Of a stretch of DNA of 55,524 nt, positions 7,380 to 42,901 are shown one piece after another; the stretch's first letter is position 1, and each line of letters opens with the position of its first letter. Made by a program: the position numbers and the translations under genes. Source of the stretch: Vicinamibacterales bacterium (GTDB lineage Bacteria; Acidobacteriota; Vicinamibacteria; Vicinamibacterales; UBA8438); NCBI GenBank assembly GCA_029940535.1, contig JAPYUM010000019.1, positions 3,848 to 59,371 on the forward strand. Direction: 5' to 3'. The notes below the pieces were generated by a model. The model saw nothing but the letters and a program-made list of their open reading frames with translations. It had not been told where the DNA came from and ran no database searches.

Positions 7380-7394
7380 TGAGATTCAGTCTCA
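7380..7394. promoter_or_regulatory. TGAGA-N5-TCTCA operator, site 1
   Basis: TGAGATTCAGTCTCA is a 15-base palindrome directly upstream of the -35 box. It is 14/15 identical to the reverse complement of the site in front of feoAB (42845-42859). The 7-1-7 layout resembles boxes of Fur-superfamily regulators, but the regulator is not identified. Confidence 0.6.
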
Positions 7395-7400
7395 TTTCTA

Positions 7401-7429
7401 TTGACGACCAAAAAGGTCGGATATATCAT
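7401..7429 (+). promoter_or_regulatory. Sigma70-type promoter with palindrome in the spacer
   Basis: TTGACG (7401-7406) and TATCAT (7424-7429) are spaced 17 bases apart. The spacer contains the inverted repeat GACCAAAAAGGTC (7406-7418). The same arrangement (TTGACC, GACCAAATTGGTC, GATATA) precedes feoAB on the minus strand at 42874-42901. A repressor bound in the spacer would block RNA polymerase. Confidence 0.65.
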
Positions 7430-7432
7430 GGC

Positions 7433-7457
7433 GATCTCAAATTGAGATCGGATCTCA
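7433..7457. promoter_or_regulatory. Overlapping operators, site 2
   Basis: Two palindromes overlap just downstream of the -10: GATCTCAAATTGAGATC (7433-7449) and TGAGATCGGATCTCA (7443-7457). The second fits the TGAGA-N5-TCTCA consensus of site 1 and of the feoAB site. A run TTTTT follows. Position over the transcription start fits repression. Confidence 0.55.
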
Positions 7458-7480: not shown

Positions 7481-7512
7481 GGGCCCGCGGGTGCTGTCAC
7501 ACCCGACGGGCC
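7481..7512 (+). other. Leader hairpin of the flavinyl operon
   Basis: GGCCC-GC-GGGTG and CACCC-GAC-GGGCC form nested stems in the about 185-base leader between the operators and the ATG at 7642. No known riboswitch is recognised. The remaining leader shows no gene. Confidence 0.35.
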
Positions 7513-7641
7513 AACTGAACGGTCACTCGGCGTTTCCTTGAACGTGCTTCGAACCAGGTTACGTGAGCTGATGACGCATCCAGCAGTAACTATTGTAGAG
7601 ATGGTCGTCGGGGCGCGCAACCGCAACCGAGAGAACAGCCC

Positions 7642-9084
7642 ATGACGGCAAAGACAGACCAGGTCCCTTCCTGGCGCATACAGATGATCTCGGCGTTGGC
7701 GCTGTGCGCCCTCGCCACCACCGCGACCGCGCAAACCCAGCATGGCGATGATTCCCAGCCCACAGCGGTCGACACGGCGGTGGCCGGCGCTCCCACCGCG
7801 TCTGGGGAAGTCGACAACACTCCCGGTCCGCGTGCGAGCGACGGTACGAACGGGTCTCCGGCCGGCGCCGAAATCGCTGAGCAGCAACCCGATCTGGCGG
7901 AAGTACTGCGCCGACTGGATCTACTCGCCGAAGAAGTCGAGCGTTTGCGGAGCGGAGAGGATGTCGCACCGGTCAGTGTCGAAGATGCGCGGCGGTTGGG
8001 GTTGGCTCCGTCAGCGGCGGCCGCCTACGGTCTCGACCGTGGCGTCTCGATCGCCGGCTACGGAGAGATGCTCCTCGAGAATTTCTCCGACGAGACCGAG
8101 GCCGGCACGCCGACGGGTCGGACTACGCAGTTCGACTTTCTGCGCGCGATCATTTACGCCGGGTATCGATTCAACGACAAGTTCCTGTTTAACTCGGAAA
8201 TCGAGGTCGAGCACGCCAAGGAGATCTTTGTCGAGTTCGCCTATCTCGACTACCAGGCAACTGAGAACTTCGGTGTCCGCGGTGGCATGCTGCTGGCGCC
8301 AATGGGGCTGGTCAACGAGTTCCACGAGCCGACGGTGTTCATGGGCGCCGAGCGCCCCGTCACCGAGAACAGGGTCATCCCTTCGACATGGCGGGAGAAC
8401 GGTGCCGGCATCTACGGGACCCACGAGCTCGTGTCCTACCGGGCCTATGTAATGAACGGTTTCAACGGGGCGAAGTTCTCGTCTGGCGGCGTACGGGGCG
8501 GGCGCCAGAAGGGCGGCAAGGCGAAAGCGACCAGCATGGCCTTCACGGGCCGCGTGGACGTGACTCCGACGCCTGGGGTGTTCTTCGGGGCGAGCCTCTA
8601 CACGGGCGATTCGGGTCAGGGCGAGATCGTGGTCGACGGCACCGAGTACGGCGTGCGCACAACGATCTTCGACCTGCACGGACAGGCCCAGGTGCGTGGA
8701 TTCGATGTGCGTGCCTTGTTCGCTCGCGCCCATCTCGATGACGTCGCTCAGCTCAACACGTCTCTCGGCAACGCCGGGTCGACCGGTATCGGCGAGCGGA
8801 TGCAGGGCGCCTACATCCAGGTCGGCTACAACCTGCTGTCGCAGGTGGGGTCGTCCGGAGGGGTGGCCTTGACGCCGTACGTCCGGCTCGAACAGGTCGA
8901 TACCCAGGCTCGGATGCCGACCGGATTCGCCCGCAGCCTGTCGACGGACAACCGGTATGTCACCGCTGGCATCGAGCTGAAACCGATTCCTAACATCGTG
9001 GTCAAGGTCGACCACGCTTGGGTCAGCAATGACGCCGACACAGGGGTCAATCAATACAACGTCAACATGGGATACGCGTTCTGA
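7642..9084 (+). CDS. Outer-membrane porin-like beta-barrel protein
   Basis: A 480-residue exported protein. A signal peptide (basic start, LALCALATTATAQ, cleavage near residue 30) is followed by a low-complexity linker. A short Leu/Glu coiled coil follows (LAEVLRRLDLLAEEVERLRSG, about 90-112), like the periplasmic trimerising coils of OprB/OprO-type porins. The rest alternates aromatic and polar residues as in beta-barrel strands and ends with VNMGYAF, an outer-membrane C-terminal Phe signature. Segments such as FDFLRAIIYAGYRFNDKFLFNSEIEVEHAKE resemble phosphate-selective or substrate-specific porins. It is first in an operon with FMN-binding, membrane and ApbE genes (2-, 4- and -4-base spacing) behind an iron-type promoter, which suggests iron or redox-ligand entry. 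The substrate is inferred, not shown. Confidence 0.8.
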   Translation: MTAKTDQVPSWRIQMISALALCALATTATAQTQHGDDSQPTAVDTAVAGAPTASGEVDNTPGPRASDGTNGSPAGAEIAEQQPDLAEVLRRLDLLAEEVERLRSGEDVAPVSVEDARRLGLAPSAAAAYGLDRGVSIAGYGEMLLENFSDETEAGTPTGRTTQFDFLRAIIYAGYRFNDKFLFNSEIEVEHAKEIFVEFAYLDYQATENFGVRGGMLLAPMGLVNEFHEPTVFMGAERPVTENRVIPSTWRENGAGIYGTHELVSYRAYVMNGFNGAKFSSGGVRGGRQKGGKAKATSMAFTGRVDVTPTPGVFFGASLYTGDSGQGEIVVDGTEYGVRTTIFDLHGQAQVRGFDVRALFARAHLDDVAQLNTSLGNAGSTGIGERMQGAYIQVGYNLLSQVGSSGGVALTPYVRLEQVDTQARMPTGFARSLSTDNRYVTAGIELKPIPNIVVKVDHAWVSNDADTGVNQYNVNMGYAF

Positions 9085-9086
9085 CG

Positions 9087-9653
9087 ATGCCCCTCCACTC
9101 CGCCGCGCGACGTCTGTGCGTCCTGGTCCTGTTGGCGCCGTTGCTGACAGGTTGGGGTGCGGCCGCTCAGAACCGGATTACTCGCGAGGAGGCCCTGGCC
9201 GCCGTTTTCCCGCAGGCGATGTTCGACGCGGAGCGGGTGTTTCTGACCCCGCCCCAGATGGCGCGGATTGGGGAGCTGGCCGGGGCGGAGGTCGAGAGCG
9301 GTCTGGTCGCCCGCTATGTGGCGACGCAAGGTGGACGGATCGTCGGACGCGCCTATGTCGACACGCATGTTGTCCGGACCAAGCGCGAGAGCCTCCTCGT
9401 CTCGCTTGAGGCCGACGGTAGCGTGAAACGCATCGATGTCACCGCGTTTCTCGAGCCGAGGGAGTATGAGGCGTCCGCGCGCTGGCTGGGGCAATACGGC
9501 CGGCGCCCATTGAACGACGATCTGGCGGTGCAGCGGGCGATTCGCCCGATTGCTGGCGCTACCTTGACGGCCGGCGCGACGAACGCCGCCGTACGACGGG
9601 TGTTGGCCATCGACTGGGTGCTGGAGTTGCCGGAAGAACAGTTGGAGCGGTGA
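9087..9653 (+). CDS. FMN-binding domain protein, predicted ApbE target
   Basis: A 188-residue exported protein of the FMN_bind family (RnfG/NqrC-like). A signal peptide covers about 1-27. The C-terminal half has the family fold signature (GRIVGRAYVDTHVVRTKRESLLVSLEADGSVKRIDVTAFLEP), and then AGATLTAGATNAAVRR. The Thr of AGAT, residue 159, is the expected site where ApbE attaches FMN by a phosphoester bond. The first small residue is Ala where Ser/Thr is more common. It probably carries electrons in the periplasm between the adjacent membrane protein and an acceptor. It starts two bases after the porin stop. Together with apbE two genes downstream the assignment is firm; the electron donor and acceptor are unknown. 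Confidence 0.88.
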   Translation: MPLHSAARRLCVLVLLAPLLTGWGAAAQNRITREEALAAVFPQAMFDAERVFLTPPQMARIGELAGAEVESGLVARYVATQGGRIVGRAYVDTHVVRTKRESLLVSLEADGSVKRIDVTAFLEPREYEASARWLGQYGRRPLNDDLAVQRAIRPIAGATLTAGATNAAVRRVLAIDWVLELPEEQLER

Positions 9654-9657
9654 CACG

Positions 9658-10134
9658 ATGAAATGGTGGGAGCAGTGGGCGTTCAACGCGTTGCATGGTG
9701 CGGTGGCCGTGACCGGCGTCGCGTATTTCTACATGAAGTACCTCGTGACCGCGGTGGACCCCTTCTCGGTCATCAATCATCCGTGGCAGCCGGCCATGCT
9801 CTCATTGCATCTGTTGGCGGCACCGTTCTTCATCGCGTTTTTTGGCATGCTGTTCCGCTCGCACACACTCAAGAAGCTCACCTCCCCGGCGGCCGGCAAT
9901 CGTCGCTCCGGGTGGATGTCCCTGATCAGCTTTTCGACGATGGCGCTGTCCGGCTACCTGCTGCAGGTGGCCTCGACCCCGACCCTGGTGACCGTCATGC
10001 TCTGGGCCCACGTATCGACGAGCGCGTTCTTCGTGGCCGGCTATAGTCTGCATCTCGTCATCGGCTGGCGAATGAGCCGGGTGTCCGACATTGCCACGAC
10101 GACGCTCCGGCGCGAGGCCGGTCTCTCGACGTGA
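9658..10134 (+). CDS. Four-helix membrane protein, putative b-type cytochrome
   Basis: A 158-residue integral membrane protein with four hydrophobic segments (about 8-30, 46-66, 84-104, 114-137). Histidines sit in or next to the helices (LHGAV, LSLHLLAAP, WAHVST, YSLHLVIGW), the pattern of small b-type cytochromes that move electrons across the inner membrane. I do not recognise a specific Pfam family; DUF4405-like or cytochrome b561-like are possibilities. It lies between the FMN-binding gene (4 bases upstream) and apbE (4-base overlap), so the likely job is to pass electrons from quinol to the covalent FMN of its neighbour. Heme binding is inferred from the histidines. Confidence 0.7.
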   Translation: MKWWEQWAFNALHGAVAVTGVAYFYMKYLVTAVDPFSVINHPWQPAMLSLHLLAAPFFIAFFGMLFRSHTLKKLTSPAAGNRRSGWMSLISFSTMALSGYLLQVASTPTLVTVMLWAHVSTSAFFVAGYSLHLVIGWRMSRVSDIATTTLRREAGLST

Positions 10135-11177
10135 GCCGCGCGACGGTGCTCCTCACGCTCGGCGCGCTGTCCTACCTCTCTCTCTATCCAGTCACCGCTG
10201 CCGGCCCGGTCAGCGTCGAGCGCACGCTGTATCTGATGGGCACGCGAGCGACACTTGCCGTCGAGTCGACGGACCGAGCCGCCGCCGTGCGGCAACTCGA
10301 GCGCATGGTCAGGAGCCTCGAACGGACCGAAGCCACCCTCAGTACGTGGCGGCACGACAGCGAGTTGAGTCGGCTGAATCGCCATCCTGTCGGAGAACCC
10401 TTTCAACTGGGGCCTGAAGTCTGCGATCTCTGGCCCACCCTGACCCGCTGGCATCGAGCGACCGCGGGCGCGTTCGACCCCGGTGTCGGTGCGTTGATCG
10501 ACGTGTGGGGACTGCGCGAGGACGGCCGCCGCCCGGCTGCGGATCGGCTGGCGGCCGCTTGGGCGGTGACCGGTCTCGGACACTTCGAGGCTGACCTCGA
10601 TCCGGACGCATGCCAGGTGACGCGTCTGGTCGACGCCACGCTCGACGCCGGCGCGTTCGGCAAAGGAGAGGCGTTGCGTCGCCTGCAGATGGACCTGGGC
10701 GGGGACGCGGTCTGGCGGGTCGACCTGGGTGGCCAGGTCGCCGTATCCGGCATGACCCCGTCGTCCGGACGCTGGCCGGTCGACGTCGCGCACCCGGCAC
10801 GCCGGTATGAGGTGGCCATGGGGCTCGTCCTCGCCACCGGCTCGTTGGCCACCAGCGGCGCATCAGAACGCACGCTGGAGGTCGATGGGGAATCGATCAC
10901 CCACATCCTCGATCCACGCACTGGTCACACCCTCTACCGACGCACGTCGGTCACCGTCTGGCACGACGACCCGCTCGCCGCCGACATTCTTTCGACCGCG
11001 CTCTACGTGTTGGGACCGGATACTGGCATGCGCTTCGCGGAGTCCCACGGGCTAGCCGCGCTCTTTCTTGTCCCGCCCCATGCTTCGGAGAGCATGGCTC
11101 TGTCCGTTCGGCCCAGCCAGGCCTTTGCGGACCGCTTTCCGGTACGCGTGGGCCCCGGCCGTCCCACCGGGCCGTAG
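10131..11177 (+). CDS. apbE: FAD:protein FMN transferase ApbE
   Basis: A 348-residue flavin transferase that uses FAD to attach FMN covalently to a Thr/Ser of exported FMN_bind proteins. Visible family features: an N-terminal signal (to about 24), YLMGTRATLAVES, the SxWxxDSELSRLN region, AFDPGVGALIDVWG, DAGAFGKGEALRRL, VDLGGQVAVSG and the C-terminal THILDPRTGHTLYRRTSVTVWHDDPLAADILSTALYVLG with the Mg-binding Asp/Thr residues. The GTG start overlaps the previous stop by four bases, so it is translationally coupled. The target is almost certainly the FMN-binding protein two genes upstream. It is the last gene of the operon. Confidence 0.95.
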   Translation: MSRATVLLTLGALSYLSLYPVTAAGPVSVERTLYLMGTRATLAVESTDRAAAVRQLERMVRSLERTEATLSTWRHDSELSRLNRHPVGEPFQLGPEVCDLWPTLTRWHRATAGAFDPGVGALIDVWGLREDGRRPAADRLAAAWAVTGLGHFEADLDPDACQVTRLVDATLDAGAFGKGEALRRLQMDLGGDAVWRVDLGGQVAVSGMTPSSGRWPVDVAHPARRYEVAMGLVLATGSLATSGASERTLEVDGESITHILDPRTGHTLYRRTSVTVWHDDPLAADILSTALYVLGPDTGMRFAESHGLAALFLVPPHASESMALSVRPSQAFADRFPVRVGPGRPTGP

Positions 11178-11277
11178 TTCGACACGACGGTCTGCCTTGC
11201 TCCGATGGTCCGTACGGTCTACGATCAGCTTCACTGAGGACGTGCGCCTCGAGCGGCCAGCCGTCCCCACCGCACTG

Positions 11278-13698
11278 ATGACTAGGCGCATTACACGTCT
11301 TCGTGCGTGCGCGCTCGCGGCCTTGTGGCTGTGCGCGGCTCGCCCTGCTCTCGGACAACCTGCACCTGGGTCGGACACGGCCCCTTACCGCGCCCTGCTC
11401 GACCAGTATTGCGTGACGTGCCACAGCGAAAGGCTTGTGGCCGGGGCTGGCGCCGCGAGCAGTCCACTGGTGTCGCAGTTGCGCGCCATCGGACTCACCC
11501 TAGATACGCTCGATCTAGACGAAATTGGCGACGGGGCTGCGCACTGGGAGCAGGTGGTGCGCAAACTGCGCGCCGGATTGATGCCGCCGGCCGGACGTCC
11601 TCGGCCTGACAACGCCACCCTGGACGGCTTCCGTGCCTGGCTCGAGACCCAACTGGACGACACCTGGACGGCGGCGCCGGACCCAGGCCGGACGGCCACC
11701 TTCCACCGGTTGAACCGGGCCGAATACCGCAACGCCATTCGAGATCTGTTGGCGCTCGAGATCGAGGTCGACGACTTTCTGCCGGCCGATGATGCCAGCT
11801 TCGGGTTCGACAACATTGGCGGCGTGCTGCGGATGTCGCAGGCGCTGCTGGAGCGGTATCTGACGGCAAGCCGGTCGATCAGCCGACTGGCGGTCGGGAG
11901 TCCGCCGCCGACTGCGGTCTCCGAGACGTTTCGAGCCGCCCAGGACGAACAGCAGCATCAGCGCGCGCAAGGGCTGCCGTTTGGCACGCGTGGCGGCATG
12001 TTGGTGGACTATCTGTTTCCGCTCGATGCCGACTACGACCTCCGCATCCAGTTGAACGGCAACCGCGGGTTGCGAGAGGAGCATCGGCTGGAAGTGACGG
12101 TGGACGGCGAGCCGGTCGAACAGTATGTCCTGGGACCCGCCCCCCCCGACGGAGAGGCCAACCCGTATGTGACCAGCTCTCAGCTCAACTTGCGCGTGCC
12201 GGTCGGCGCAGGCCGGCATGAGGTGGGGGTGGCCTTTTCACGCCGTCCGCCGGTGCTGGTAGAGCAGGTGCGGGAGCGTTTTCAGAATCCTCGGACGGCG
12301 GGGAACGCTGGTGGCCCGGGCGGCAGCCTGCCGTTTGTCAGCACGGTGACCATCTCTGGACCCCATGATGCGCGTGGTCCCGGTCAGACCCCGAGCCGTG
12401 ACCGCATCTTCACGTGCCGTCCGGCCACCCCGGCGGACGAGCCGGGCTGCGCCCGGACCATCCTGTCGACCTTGGCGCGTCGCGCGTATCGCGCCCCGGT
12501 GACGGACACCGACCTTGCGGTGCTGCTCGACTTCTACGAGATGGGCCGCGCGGATGGTGGAAGCTTCGAGGACGGCATTGAGCTCGGCCTCCGCCGATTG
12601 CTGGTCAGTCCGGAATTCCTGGTGCGTATCGAGGCGGACCCGGTCGGGGCGTCGCCGGCCACGTCGTATCGGGTGACAGACCTCGAGTTGGCCTCCCGGC
12701 TCTCGTTCTTCTTGTGGAGCGGGATCCCGGACGACGAACTGCTCATACTGGCCGAGCGCGGGCGGTTGAGCGACGCGGCCACTCTCGAACAGCAGGTGCG
12801 CCGGATGATTGCGGACCCGCGGTCAGAAGCGGTCACTCGCAACTTTGCCGGCCAGTGGCTGCAGCTCCGCAACCTCGAGTACGCGGTTCGGCCCGGTGAC
12901 CCGTATTCGCTGGCGTTTGACGAGACGCTGCGCCAGGCGATGTTGCGCGAAACCGAGCTGTTCGTCGACAGCATCATTCGTGACGATCGCGGGGTGTTCG
13001 ACCTGCTGACCGCCGACTACACGTTTCTGAACGAGCGGCTCGCCGGCCACTACGACATTCCGAACGTCCAGGGGAGCCACTTCCGTCGCGTGAGTTTGCC
13101 GGCCGGGAGCCCGCGTGGCGGTTTGCTGGGCCACGGCAGTATTCTGACGCTGACGTCGCACGCGATCCGTACCTCGCCGGTGCTCCGGGGCAAGTGGATT
13201 CTGAACAACATCCTCGGCACGCCGCCTCCCGATCCGCCACCCAATATTCCGGCGCTGAACGACAAGAAGACCCAGGCGAAGGTGGCGACCATGCGTGAGC
13301 GGATGTCGGCGCATCGCGCCAATCCCGTGTGCGCCGCGTGTCACTCGATGATCGATCCGGCCGGGTTTGCGCTCGAGCGGTTCGACGCCATCGGACGGTC
13401 ACGCGAGGTCGACGAGTCGTTCAACGCGCTGGATACGTCCGGGACGCTGCCGGATGGCACCGCGTTCGATGGGGTGGCCGAACTGCGAGCGGCGCTGGTC
13501 GAGCGACCCGATCGGTTTGCCACGACCGTCACCGAGAAGCTGCTGACCTATGCTCTGGGCCGCGGTCTCGACTACTACGACATGCCGGCCGTGCGGCGTA
13601 TTGTGCGTGAGGCGTCCGAAGAGGACTACGGCATGCACGCCATCATCGTCGGCATCGTGAACAGCTATCCGTTCCTGCACAGGAGAAGCGAGTCATGA
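11278..13698 (+). CDS. Planctomycete-type cytochrome c protein (DUF1587/1595/1592/1588/1585), copy 1
   Basis: An 806-residue exported multidomain protein. ATG 11278 gives a signal peptide (MTRRITRLRACALAALWLCAARPALGQ); the open frame before it is not signal-like. Order: heme motif CVTCH at 45-49; DUF1587 (HRLNRAEYRNAIRDLLALE) about 140-200; a beta-rich insert; DUF1595 (LARRAYRAPVTDTDL); DUF1592 (ASRLSFFLWSGIPDDELL to SPVLRGKWILNNILG); DUF1588 with CAACH at 685-689 followed by MIDPAGFALERFDAIG; and C-terminal DUF1585 (EKLLTYALGRGLDYYD). Both CxxCH sites could bind heme c. The function of this family is unknown; it is nearly always followed by a DUF1552 gene, here overlapping by four bases. A paralogue lies at 48634-51156. 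Confidence 0.93.
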   Translation: MTRRITRLRACALAALWLCAARPALGQPAPGSDTAPYRALLDQYCVTCHSERLVAGAGAASSPLVSQLRAIGLTLDTLDLDEIGDGAAHWEQVVRKLRAGLMPPAGRPRPDNATLDGFRAWLETQLDDTWTAAPDPGRTATFHRLNRAEYRNAIRDLLALEIEVDDFLPADDASFGFDNIGGVLRMSQALLERYLTASRSISRLAVGSPPPTAVSETFRAAQDEQQHQRAQGLPFGTRGGMLVDYLFPLDADYDLRIQLNGNRGLREEHRLEVTVDGEPVEQYVLGPAPPDGEANPYVTSSQLNLRVPVGAGRHEVGVAFSRRPPVLVEQVRERFQNPRTAGNAGGPGGSLPFVSTVTISGPHDARGPGQTPSRDRIFTCRPATPADEPGCARTILSTLARRAYRAPVTDTDLAVLLDFYEMGRADGGSFEDGIELGLRRLLVSPEFLVRIEADPVGASPATSYRVTDLELASRLSFFLWSGIPDDELLILAERGRLSDAATLEQQVRRMIADPRSEAVTRNFAGQWLQLRNLEYAVRPGDPYSLAFDETLRQAMLRETELFVDSIIRDDRGVFDLLTADYTFLNERLAGHYDIPNVQGSHFRRVSLPAGSPRGGLLGHGSILTLTSHAIRTSPVLRGKWILNNILGTPPPDPPPNIPALNDKKTQAKVATMRERMSAHRANPVCAACHSMIDPAGFALERFDAIGRSREVDESFNALDTSGTLPDGTAFDGVAELRAALVERPDRFATTVTEKLLTYALGRGLDYYDMPAVRRIVREASEEDYGMHAIIVGIVNSYPFLHRRSES

Positions 13699-15038
13699 TC
13701 GTTACCAAGAAGGCGCTCCCACGTCGCACCGTGCTCCGTGGTATCGGGGCAACGGTCGCCCTGCCGTTCCTCGACGCGATGGCGCCGGCCCTGACGGCCA
13801 CTGCCCGCACTGCCGCGAATCCACTGCCGCGATTGGGATTCGTGTATGCACCGAACGGTATGTTCCTGCCGAACTTCCATCCCCTCGGTGGCGGGGGACG
13901 GGGCTTCGAGATGTCCCCGACTCTCAAGCCGCTCGAGCCGTACCGCGAGCAAATGGTGGTGGTGAGCGGCCTGTCCAATCGAGGGCTTGTCAGCACCAAT
14001 GAAGGCGGCGGGGTGCACACCCGCGCGCACGGCGGCTGGTTGAGCGGCGTGTTGCCAAAACGCACCGAGGGGGCCGACATCGAGGCTGGCAAGACGATCG
14101 ACCAGTATGCGGCCGACACCCTGGGCGCCGACACCTCGTTGCGGTCGCTCGAATTGACCACCGAGTCGAACTTCACGGTCGGCAACTGTGAGAACGGCTA
14201 CAGCTGCACGTATCAGAACTCGACGTCCTGGCGCACGGCCACGACACCCCTGCCCCACGAGCGCGATCCGCGGGTCGTGTTCCAACGTCTGTTCGGCGAT
14301 GGCGGCAGCGTCGAGGCGCGATTGGCGCAGATGCAGACCGACCGCAGCATCCTGGACTCGGTCACCGAGAGCATCGGTCGTCTTGAGCGGCGTTTGGGTC
14401 TGCGAGACCGGACGTCGGTCGAGGAATATCTCGACGCCGTGCGCGAGATCGAACGGCGGATCCAGCGGGCAGAGCAGAGCAACGCCACCACCCCGCTTCC
14501 GACCGTGGAGCAGCCGAGTGGCGTGCCGGATGACTATGACGAGCACGTGTCGCTGCTGTTCGAGATGCTGGTGCTCGCCTATCAGGCTGACGTCACCCGG
14601 GTGAGTTGCACCCAGATGGCGCGCGAGCTCAGTGGGCGCACCTATCCCAATATCGGCGTGCCGGAGGCACATCACAGTGTGTCGCACCACCAGCTCGACC
14701 CGCACAACATCGAGCAGTACACGAAGATCAATACGCATCAGATGTCTCTGTTCGCGGGCATGGTCGAGCGTATGCACAACACGCCGGATGGCGACGGAAC
14801 CCTGCTGGACCACACCATCCTGTTGTATGGCACGGGCATGGGTGACGGCGATCATCACACCCCGTACAACCTGCCGGTCACGCTCGTCGGCGGCGGCTGC
14901 GGACAGCTCGCGGGTGGACGGCACATGGTGTACGAGCTCGACACGCCGTTCATGAATCTGGGTGTGACGTTGCTCGACAAGGTGGGCGCGCATGTCGACA
15001 GCGTGTCCGATAGCACGGGGCGGCTGGCGGAGCTGTGA
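13695..15038 (+). CDS. DUF1552 protein with Tat signal, copy 1
   Basis: A 447-residue protein. The N-terminus has a twin-arginine export motif, LPRRTVLRGIGATVALPFLD, so it should be exported folded. The body has DUF1552 features: RLGFVYAPNGMFLPNFHP, YREQMVVVSGLSN, VHTRAHGGWLSGVLP, IDQYAAD, a repeated ERDPRVVFQRLFGDGG region, GVPEAHHSVSHHQ and LYGTGMGDGDHH.PYNLPVTLVGGG. The His/Asp-rich motifs resemble those of DUF1501/alkaline-phosphatase-like proteins, which is a hint of metal-dependent hydrolase ancestry, not a proof. ATGA overlap with the upstream cytochrome gene indicates coupled synthesis and a joint function. About 446 residues, the same as copy 2 at 51168. Confidence 0.92.
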   Translation: MIVTKKALPRRTVLRGIGATVALPFLDAMAPALTATARTAANPLPRLGFVYAPNGMFLPNFHPLGGGGRGFEMSPTLKPLEPYREQMVVVSGLSNRGLVSTNEGGGVHTRAHGGWLSGVLPKRTEGADIEAGKTIDQYAADTLGADTSLRSLELTTESNFTVGNCENGYSCTYQNSTSWRTATTPLPHERDPRVVFQRLFGDGGSVEARLAQMQTDRSILDSVTESIGRLERRLGLRDRTSVEEYLDAVREIERRIQRAEQSNATTPLPTVEQPSGVPDDYDEHVSLLFEMLVLAYQADVTRVSCTQMARELSGRTYPNIGVPEAHHSVSHHQLDPHNIEQYTKINTHQMSLFAGMVERMHNTPDGDGTLLDHTILLYGTGMGDGDHHTPYNLPVTLVGGGCGQLAGGRHMVYELDTPFMNLGVTLLDKVGAHVDSVSDSTGRLAEL

Positions 15039-42873: not shown

Positions 42874-42901
42874 TCTATATCGGACCAATTTGGTCGGTCA
42901 A
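42874..42901 (-). promoter_or_regulatory. feoAB promoter with palindrome in the spacer
   Basis: Read on the minus strand: TTGACC (42901-42896), 16-base spacer containing GACCAAATTGGTC (42895-42883), TATAGA (42879-42874). It is aligned base for base with the promoter at 7401-7429 except for one extra C and a few changes in the loop. Confidence 0.65.

Follow-up and report, generated by a model that had tools for sequence, protein, structure and literature searches.

IscR, an Fe-S protein of the Rrf2 family, controls feoAB in Rhodobacter (PMC4618611), and feoB is under IscR control in Yersinia as well. In Rhodobacter sphaeroides, its sites lie over or near the -35 and -10 elements, and it represses genes of Fe-S assembly as well as genes of iron uptake, feoAB among them (PMC4618611). 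The IscR type-1 operator of the isc operon in E. coli and Pseudomonas aeruginosa is a 25-bp element with GAC...GTC half-sites lying over an Fe-S assembly promoter (PMC3899308), and in Caulobacter crescentus the IscR and Fur regulons partially overlap (PMC11475020). The Fur box of Xanthomonas, AATGAGAATCATTCTCATT, is a TGAGA..TCTCA inverted repeat of 7-1-7 form found before TonB receptor genes (PMC1790865). Moreover, Fur controls flavinylation clusters in Shewanella and Caulobacter, and the Fur-repressed clusters of PepSY type encode ApbE-flavinylated extracytoplasmic proteins linked to iron assimilation (Meheust et al. 2021, PMC8238504).

We analysed a stretch of 55,524 nucleotides from a Vicinamibacterales bacterium (hereafter the window), in which two promoters share these features: a 25-bp operator-like palindrome with equally spaced GAC...GTC half-sites, and Fur-type boxes of the 7-1-7 form. 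One promoter precedes a fused feoAB gene and the other an operon with an ApbE flavin transferase, termed the flavinyl operon. With a probability of about 0.8, both are co-repressed by two sensors of iron status, Fe2+-loaded Fur and a cluster-loaded Rrf2 protein.

Promoters and genes of the flavinyl and feoAB operons

The promoter elements that a sequence-only reading had reported at the two loci were all found, base for base (Table 1). At the flavinyl promoter, the -35 and -10 elements are separated by a spacer of 17 bp, and at both promoters the putative Rrf2 site fills a spacer of normal length (17-18 bp). The positions of this site and of the downstream box would fit repression. Judging from the -10 at 7424-7429, the flavinyl start site should be near 7436; the upstream box would then span about -56 to -42 and the downstream box about +8 to +22. 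In addition, a second inverted repeat, GATCTCAAATTGAGATC (7433-7449), overlaps the downstream box; some genomes of the genus have related forms, which points to a pair of Fur sites that overlap.

The same reading had placed two palindromes in one and the same relation to the promoter at both loci. This holds for the spacer palindrome and the downstream box, but the upstream box is confined to the flavinyl promoter, which thus has one box on each side compared to a downstream box only at feoAB. The feoAB box is identical to the first flavinyl box at 14 of 15 positions. As for the feoAB -10 element, the reported GATATA is present, but the -10 conserved in relatives is TAGACT, four bases further downstream.

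Table 1. Positions of promoter elements, leader and genes in the window.
Feature	Position	Strand	Basis or remark
Upstream Fur-type box TGAGATTCAGTCTCA	7380-7394	+	7-1-7 inverted repeat; kept in relatives
Flavinyl -35, TTGACG	7401-7406	+	relatives keep TTGAC(C)
Predicted Rrf2/IscR type-1-like operator ATTGACGACCAAAAAGGTCGGATAT, in spacer	7400-7424	+	19/25 against IscR type-1 consensus
Operator core palindrome GACCAAAAAGGTC	7406-7418	+	same core at feoAB and sufB
Flavinyl -10, TATCAT	7424-7429	+	TATAGT in relatives
Downstream Fur-type box TGAGATCGGATCTCA	7443-7457	+	kept in relatives
Conserved leader hairpin GGCCCGCGGGTGCTGTCACACCCGACGGGCC, then AACTGAACG	7482-7512	+	sequence conservation
First flavinyl-operon gene, 480 aa, probable outer-membrane beta-barrel	7642-9084	+	read from sequence; conserved in relatives
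188-aa secreted FMN_bind-like protein, probable ApbE substrate	9087-9653	+	GAT-L-T motif
158-aa small membrane protein	9658-10134	+	sequence
ApbE flavin transferase	10131-11177	+	PF02424, E=7.5e-53
Fused FeoA-FeoB ferrous iron transporter, 835 aa	40279-42786	-	TIGR00437, 506.8 bits, above cut-off
feoAB Fur-type box TGAGATCCAGTCTCA, about +7 to +21	42859-42845	-	kept in most of family f1 and in other families
feoAB -10 region TATAGACT	about 42879-42872	-	window sequence
feoAB -10, TAGACT	42877-42872	-	kept through family; 18-bp spacer
GATATA, -10-like	42881-42876	-	window sequence
feoAB core palindrome GACCAAATTGGTC	42895-42883	-	window sequence
Predicted Rrf2/IscR type-1-like operator of feoAB TTGACCGACCAAATTGGTCCGATAT	42877-42901	-	18/25 against IscR type-1 consensus
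feoAB -35, TTGACC	42901-42896	-	window sequence

Within the flavinyl operon, the identity of ApbE is certain. The 188-aa protein matches FMN_bind at E=0.013, below the curated cut-off, and its GATLT motif is kept in all aligned relatives except for one GGTLT variant; the operon therefore has the pairing expected for ApbE flavinylation, an ApbE together with a substrate carrying an FMN_bind-type GATLT motif, though the FMN_bind match is weak. The 480-aa barrel-like protein has no Pfam match, and a second homologue (36% identical) is encoded at another place in the genome (G000:C8:10979-11941). Past apbE, the window contains DUF1592/1588/1585-type cytochrome-like and DUF1552 genes (11068-15038). 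Co-regulation with feoAB suggests a candidate role for the operon as an extracytoplasmic ferric reductase feeding FeoB.

The flavinyl leader contains a hairpin sequence (7482-7521) with a GGCCCG..CGGGCC stem and a GGTG/CACC stem in the loop, followed by TGAACG, as aligned in 16 distinct sequences of relatives. It was absent from all other loci searched for it. The hairpin matches no Rfam family at gathering thresholds, and just a single pair clearly co-varies in it, so we assign it no RNA function.

Distribution of the motifs in the host genome and among relatives

The pattern GACC-N5-GGTC-N18-30-TGAGA-N5-TCTCA occurs twice in the window and in none of 300 first-order Markov copies of it, and neither motif pattern arose in 5,000 copies of each intergenic region. 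In the host genome, a 4.83-Mb draft of 228 contigs examined by pattern searches and by reading individual stretches, TGAGATNNNNTCTCA is matched exactly at the three boxes and nowhere else. A wider pattern, TGAGAYYNRRTCTCA, adds one match inside a tRNA-Leu gene, and TGAGACTAGGTCTCA at C110 was rejected as a regulatory site, being an arm of tRNA-Leu. In a loose scan with GACCAANNNGGTC, the remaining matches, among those inspected, fell mostly within coding sequence; a palindrome at C10:26832 is intergenic, ahead of a small gene. The spacer motif ATATNNGACC-N5-GGTC has three matches genome-wide, at the flavinyl, feoAB and sufB promoters, and a reversed control of ATATNNGACCN5GGTC has none in this genome. 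Random scatter over the genome, which would have spoken against a regulon, is not seen.

A blind scan of about 111,000 window positions with the E. coli IscR type-1 consensus ATASYYGACTRWWWYAGTCRRSTAT (PMC3899308) revealed that the four top scores are the two strands of the flavinyl (19/25) and feoAB (18/25) palindromes, each of which has the form of a type-1 operator, a ATASYYGACTRWWWYAGTCRRSTAT-like palindrome across the core promoter. Scanned with the Xanthomonas Fur box (PMC1790865), the window has matches of at least 13/19 only at the three TGAGA boxes (13-15/19), the best being the upstream flavinyl box (15/19). Like a Fur box, each of them is an inverted repeat of 7-1-7 form that begins with TGA and ends with TCA. 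The E. coli Fur consensus reached 12/19 at best, which is uninformative and counts against assignment to Fur. As the earlier reader did not use these consensuses, the scan provides independent support for two distinct regulators.

Among relatives, both motifs are kept at the feoAB and flavinyl loci, and the spacer palindrome also at sufB. Upstream of the flavinyl operon, the order of box, TTGAC(C)GACC-N5-GGTC with -10, and box is preserved in about 20 relatives, with the box starts 62-68 bp apart. At feoAB, the TGAGA box lies just downstream of the -10 in most of family f1 and in other families. The spacer palindrome is kept there in genera g1 and g6 of family f1 and in one genome of family f9 (G035); it is missing from many family members, which means that feoAB is not under dual control everywhere. 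The proposed clustering of the motifs before iron genes is borne out by feoAB itself and by TGAGA boxes before TonB receptors, FTR1 permease, flavodoxin and a CbiX-domain operon in relatives.

A search of 84,980 species for the composite pattern TTGAC-N0-1-GACC-N5-GGTC-N18-30-TGAGA-N5-TCTCA yielded 47 loci, most of them ahead of genes for iron uptake, compared to about 0.2 expected by our estimate under uniform base composition. Forty-two of them precede TonB receptors (15), the flavinyl operon (10), a CbiX/PQQ operon (7), feoAB (5), PepSY_TM proteins (4) or a chorismate-binding enzyme (1); the other five precede other genes or lie at contig ends. The E-values and counts given here are drawn from related, often fragmented genomes. 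All but two of the records are titled Acidobacteria, Vicinamibacteria, Vicinamibacterales, Vicinamibacteraceae or Luteitalea. One of these two is a MAG titled Cyanobacteria. A match before a DUF1559 protein outside the named Acidobacteria records (L306) is probably due to chance. At six loci of relatives (L274, L275, L290, L331, L334 and L336), the composite promoter precedes an operon encoding a CbiX-domain protein and a BamB/PQQ-like beta-propeller. At another locus, it precedes a gene for a chorismate-binding, isochorismate synthase-like protein (L293:3559-4773), which hints at siderophore synthesis in that relative.

Candidate regulators and alternative readings

An eight-genome scan for the spacer palindrome revealed recurrent intergenic matches ahead of sufB in five genomes, which belong to two genera. 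At 23 of 30 sufB loci, GACCN5GGTC is found no more than 200 bp upstream of the gene, which accounts for 24 of its 32 occurrences over the 130 kb of sufB loci. These loci are mutually related and not independent trials. The TGAGA box is not needed at sufB promoters. In other families of the order, an Rrf2 orthologue (55-68% identical) adjoins sufB in front, and orthologous Rrf2 promoters carry GAC[CT]-N5-[GA]GTC, as in GACTGTTCCAGTC (G035), GACTAATCAGGTC (G028) and GACTAAAGCGGTC (G038). Read from the sequence, an Rrf2 gene that adjoins sufB and has the palindrome in the promoter of the regulator itself matches the way in which autoregulated IscR/SufR genes are usually arranged. One genome, G041, has sufB, which ends near a contig end, and lacks the Rrf2 gene.

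The host genome has a single Rrf2 gene (G000:C33, L014), which adjoins the cysteine desulfurase gene iscS. The protein scores 118 bits with PF02082 (curated cut-off 30), 101.4 with the SUF regulator model TIGR02944 (cut-off 110.65) and 83.9 with the IscR model TIGR02010 (cut-off 207.55); TIGR02944 and the IscR models are its best matches, together with the solved structures of IscR and NsrR. Three cysteines (C-X6-C-X5-C), resembling cluster ligands, are kept among orthologues, and no His occupies the expected position of the fourth ligand. The residues aligned with IscR Ser40, Tyr41, Glu43 and Gln44 all differ, which weakens the case for a cluster-loaded DNA-binding form; the one aligned with Glu43 is Ala, and in IscR this exchange enables the apo form to bind type-1 sites (PMC3899308). 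Since the genome has only one Rrf2 protein, the spacer palindrome is most likely the operator of this IscR-type Fe-S sensor, with the suf operon as a third target. The TGAGA-N5-TCTCA boxes are likely of Fur type and are predicted to bind the product of the single host Fur gene. This Fur (L073:1360-2427) carries a C-terminal rubrerythrin/ferritin-like fusion, and its gene directly follows an ErpA/IscA-like gene.

That the palindromes are effects of chance or composition has a practically negligible probability: the Markov simulations gave none, and conservation in many species and families refutes it, which upholds the earlier claim that the arrangement was unlikely to be accidental. It is quite unlikely that the spacer palindrome serves a different dimeric regulator that happens to control suf and iron uptake. 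The palindrome is absent from the 220 bp before the host Rrf2 gene, as such a regulator would allow, but orthologous Rrf2 promoters in several other families carry it, it is the best type-1 match in the window, and IscR/SufR proteins typically control suf (PMC3899308).

The genome also encodes one DtxR-family protein with a C-terminal FeoA domain, to which the TGAGA boxes might belong instead of to Fur. We regard this as unlikely, given that the protein scores best against the MntR model, that the boxes have the 7-1-7 form and resemble the Xanthomonas Fur box, and that those of relatives precede TonB receptors, FTR1 and flavodoxin. As for the sign of regulation, MerR proteins act on over-long spacers, whereas the spacers of 17-18 bp are normal here, and an Rrf2 dimer would cover the face of polymerase between -35 and -10. 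MerR-type activation was rejected on account of the spacer length, and a scheme with Rrf2 activating from the spacer and the two sensors opposed is very unlikely, even though apo-IscR of Rhodobacter is reported to activate some of its targets (PMC4618611).

Proposed dual control and comparison with known systems

In the preferred reading, that of co-repression by Fur and Rrf2, Fe2+-loaded Fur would bind the TGAGA-N5-TCTCA boxes at the start sites of both promoters and also upstream of the -35 at the flavinyl promoter. A single Rrf2 protein of IscR/SufR type would bind GACC-N5-GGTC between the -35 and -10 elements and block RNA polymerase. FeoAB import and the flavinylated redox system would then be fully expressed only when Fe2+ and Fe-S clusters are both scarce, whereas the suf operon would answer to the Rrf2 regulator alone. 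The shared iron regulon with two regulators, as originally suggested, is thus supported by the restriction of the motifs, their conservation and the iron-gene contexts.

More broadly, Vicinamibacteria-type Acidobacteriota may use a standard two-sensor iron promoter, in which an IscR/SufR-type spacer operator and Fur boxes at fixed helical distances form an Fe2+/Fe-S AND gate that has recruited an unrecognised ferric reduction system of barrel, flavoprotein and ApbE with a conserved leader hairpin; this generalisation could equally prove right or wrong. The design allows regulators, operators and a regulon to be predicted for bacteria most of which are uncultured, and its conservation would assign an uncharacterised flavinylation operon to iron acquisition. 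It also raises a testable question: does a single promoter place iron import under the joint control of free iron and of Fe-S cluster supply?

No account of iron regulation in Vicinamibacteria came up in our literature searches. Compared to the IscR type-1 operator (PMC3899308), the half-sites here are GACC/GGTC instead of GACT/AGTC, the recognition-helix residues differ, and the operator also occurs at feoAB and other iron-uptake promoters beside a Fur-type box. In Rhodobacter sphaeroides, the iron genes carry a 19-bp Iron-Rhodo-box and IscR has a single cysteine (PMC4618611), whereas the Rrf2 protein here has three cysteines and, at the composite promoters, its putative sites are accompanied by Fur-type boxes at fixed positions. 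In Caulobacter crescentus, the IscR motifs differ from those found here and feoAB is not IscR-dependent (PMC11475020). The central bases of the boxes are CT-N-AG or TC/TT-N-AG, compared to AAT-N-ATT in the Xanthomonas Fur box (PMC1790865). In contrast to the PepSY-type clusters (PMC8238504), the flavinyl operon contains no PepSY gene; beside ApbE, it encodes a small membrane protein, an FMN_bind-like protein and what is predicted to be an outer-membrane barrel. Altogether, the parts are of known kinds, but their combination, as conserved in this group, does not seem to have been described before; the novelty lies in the fixed composite layout and in how it has spread within the class Vicinamibacteria.
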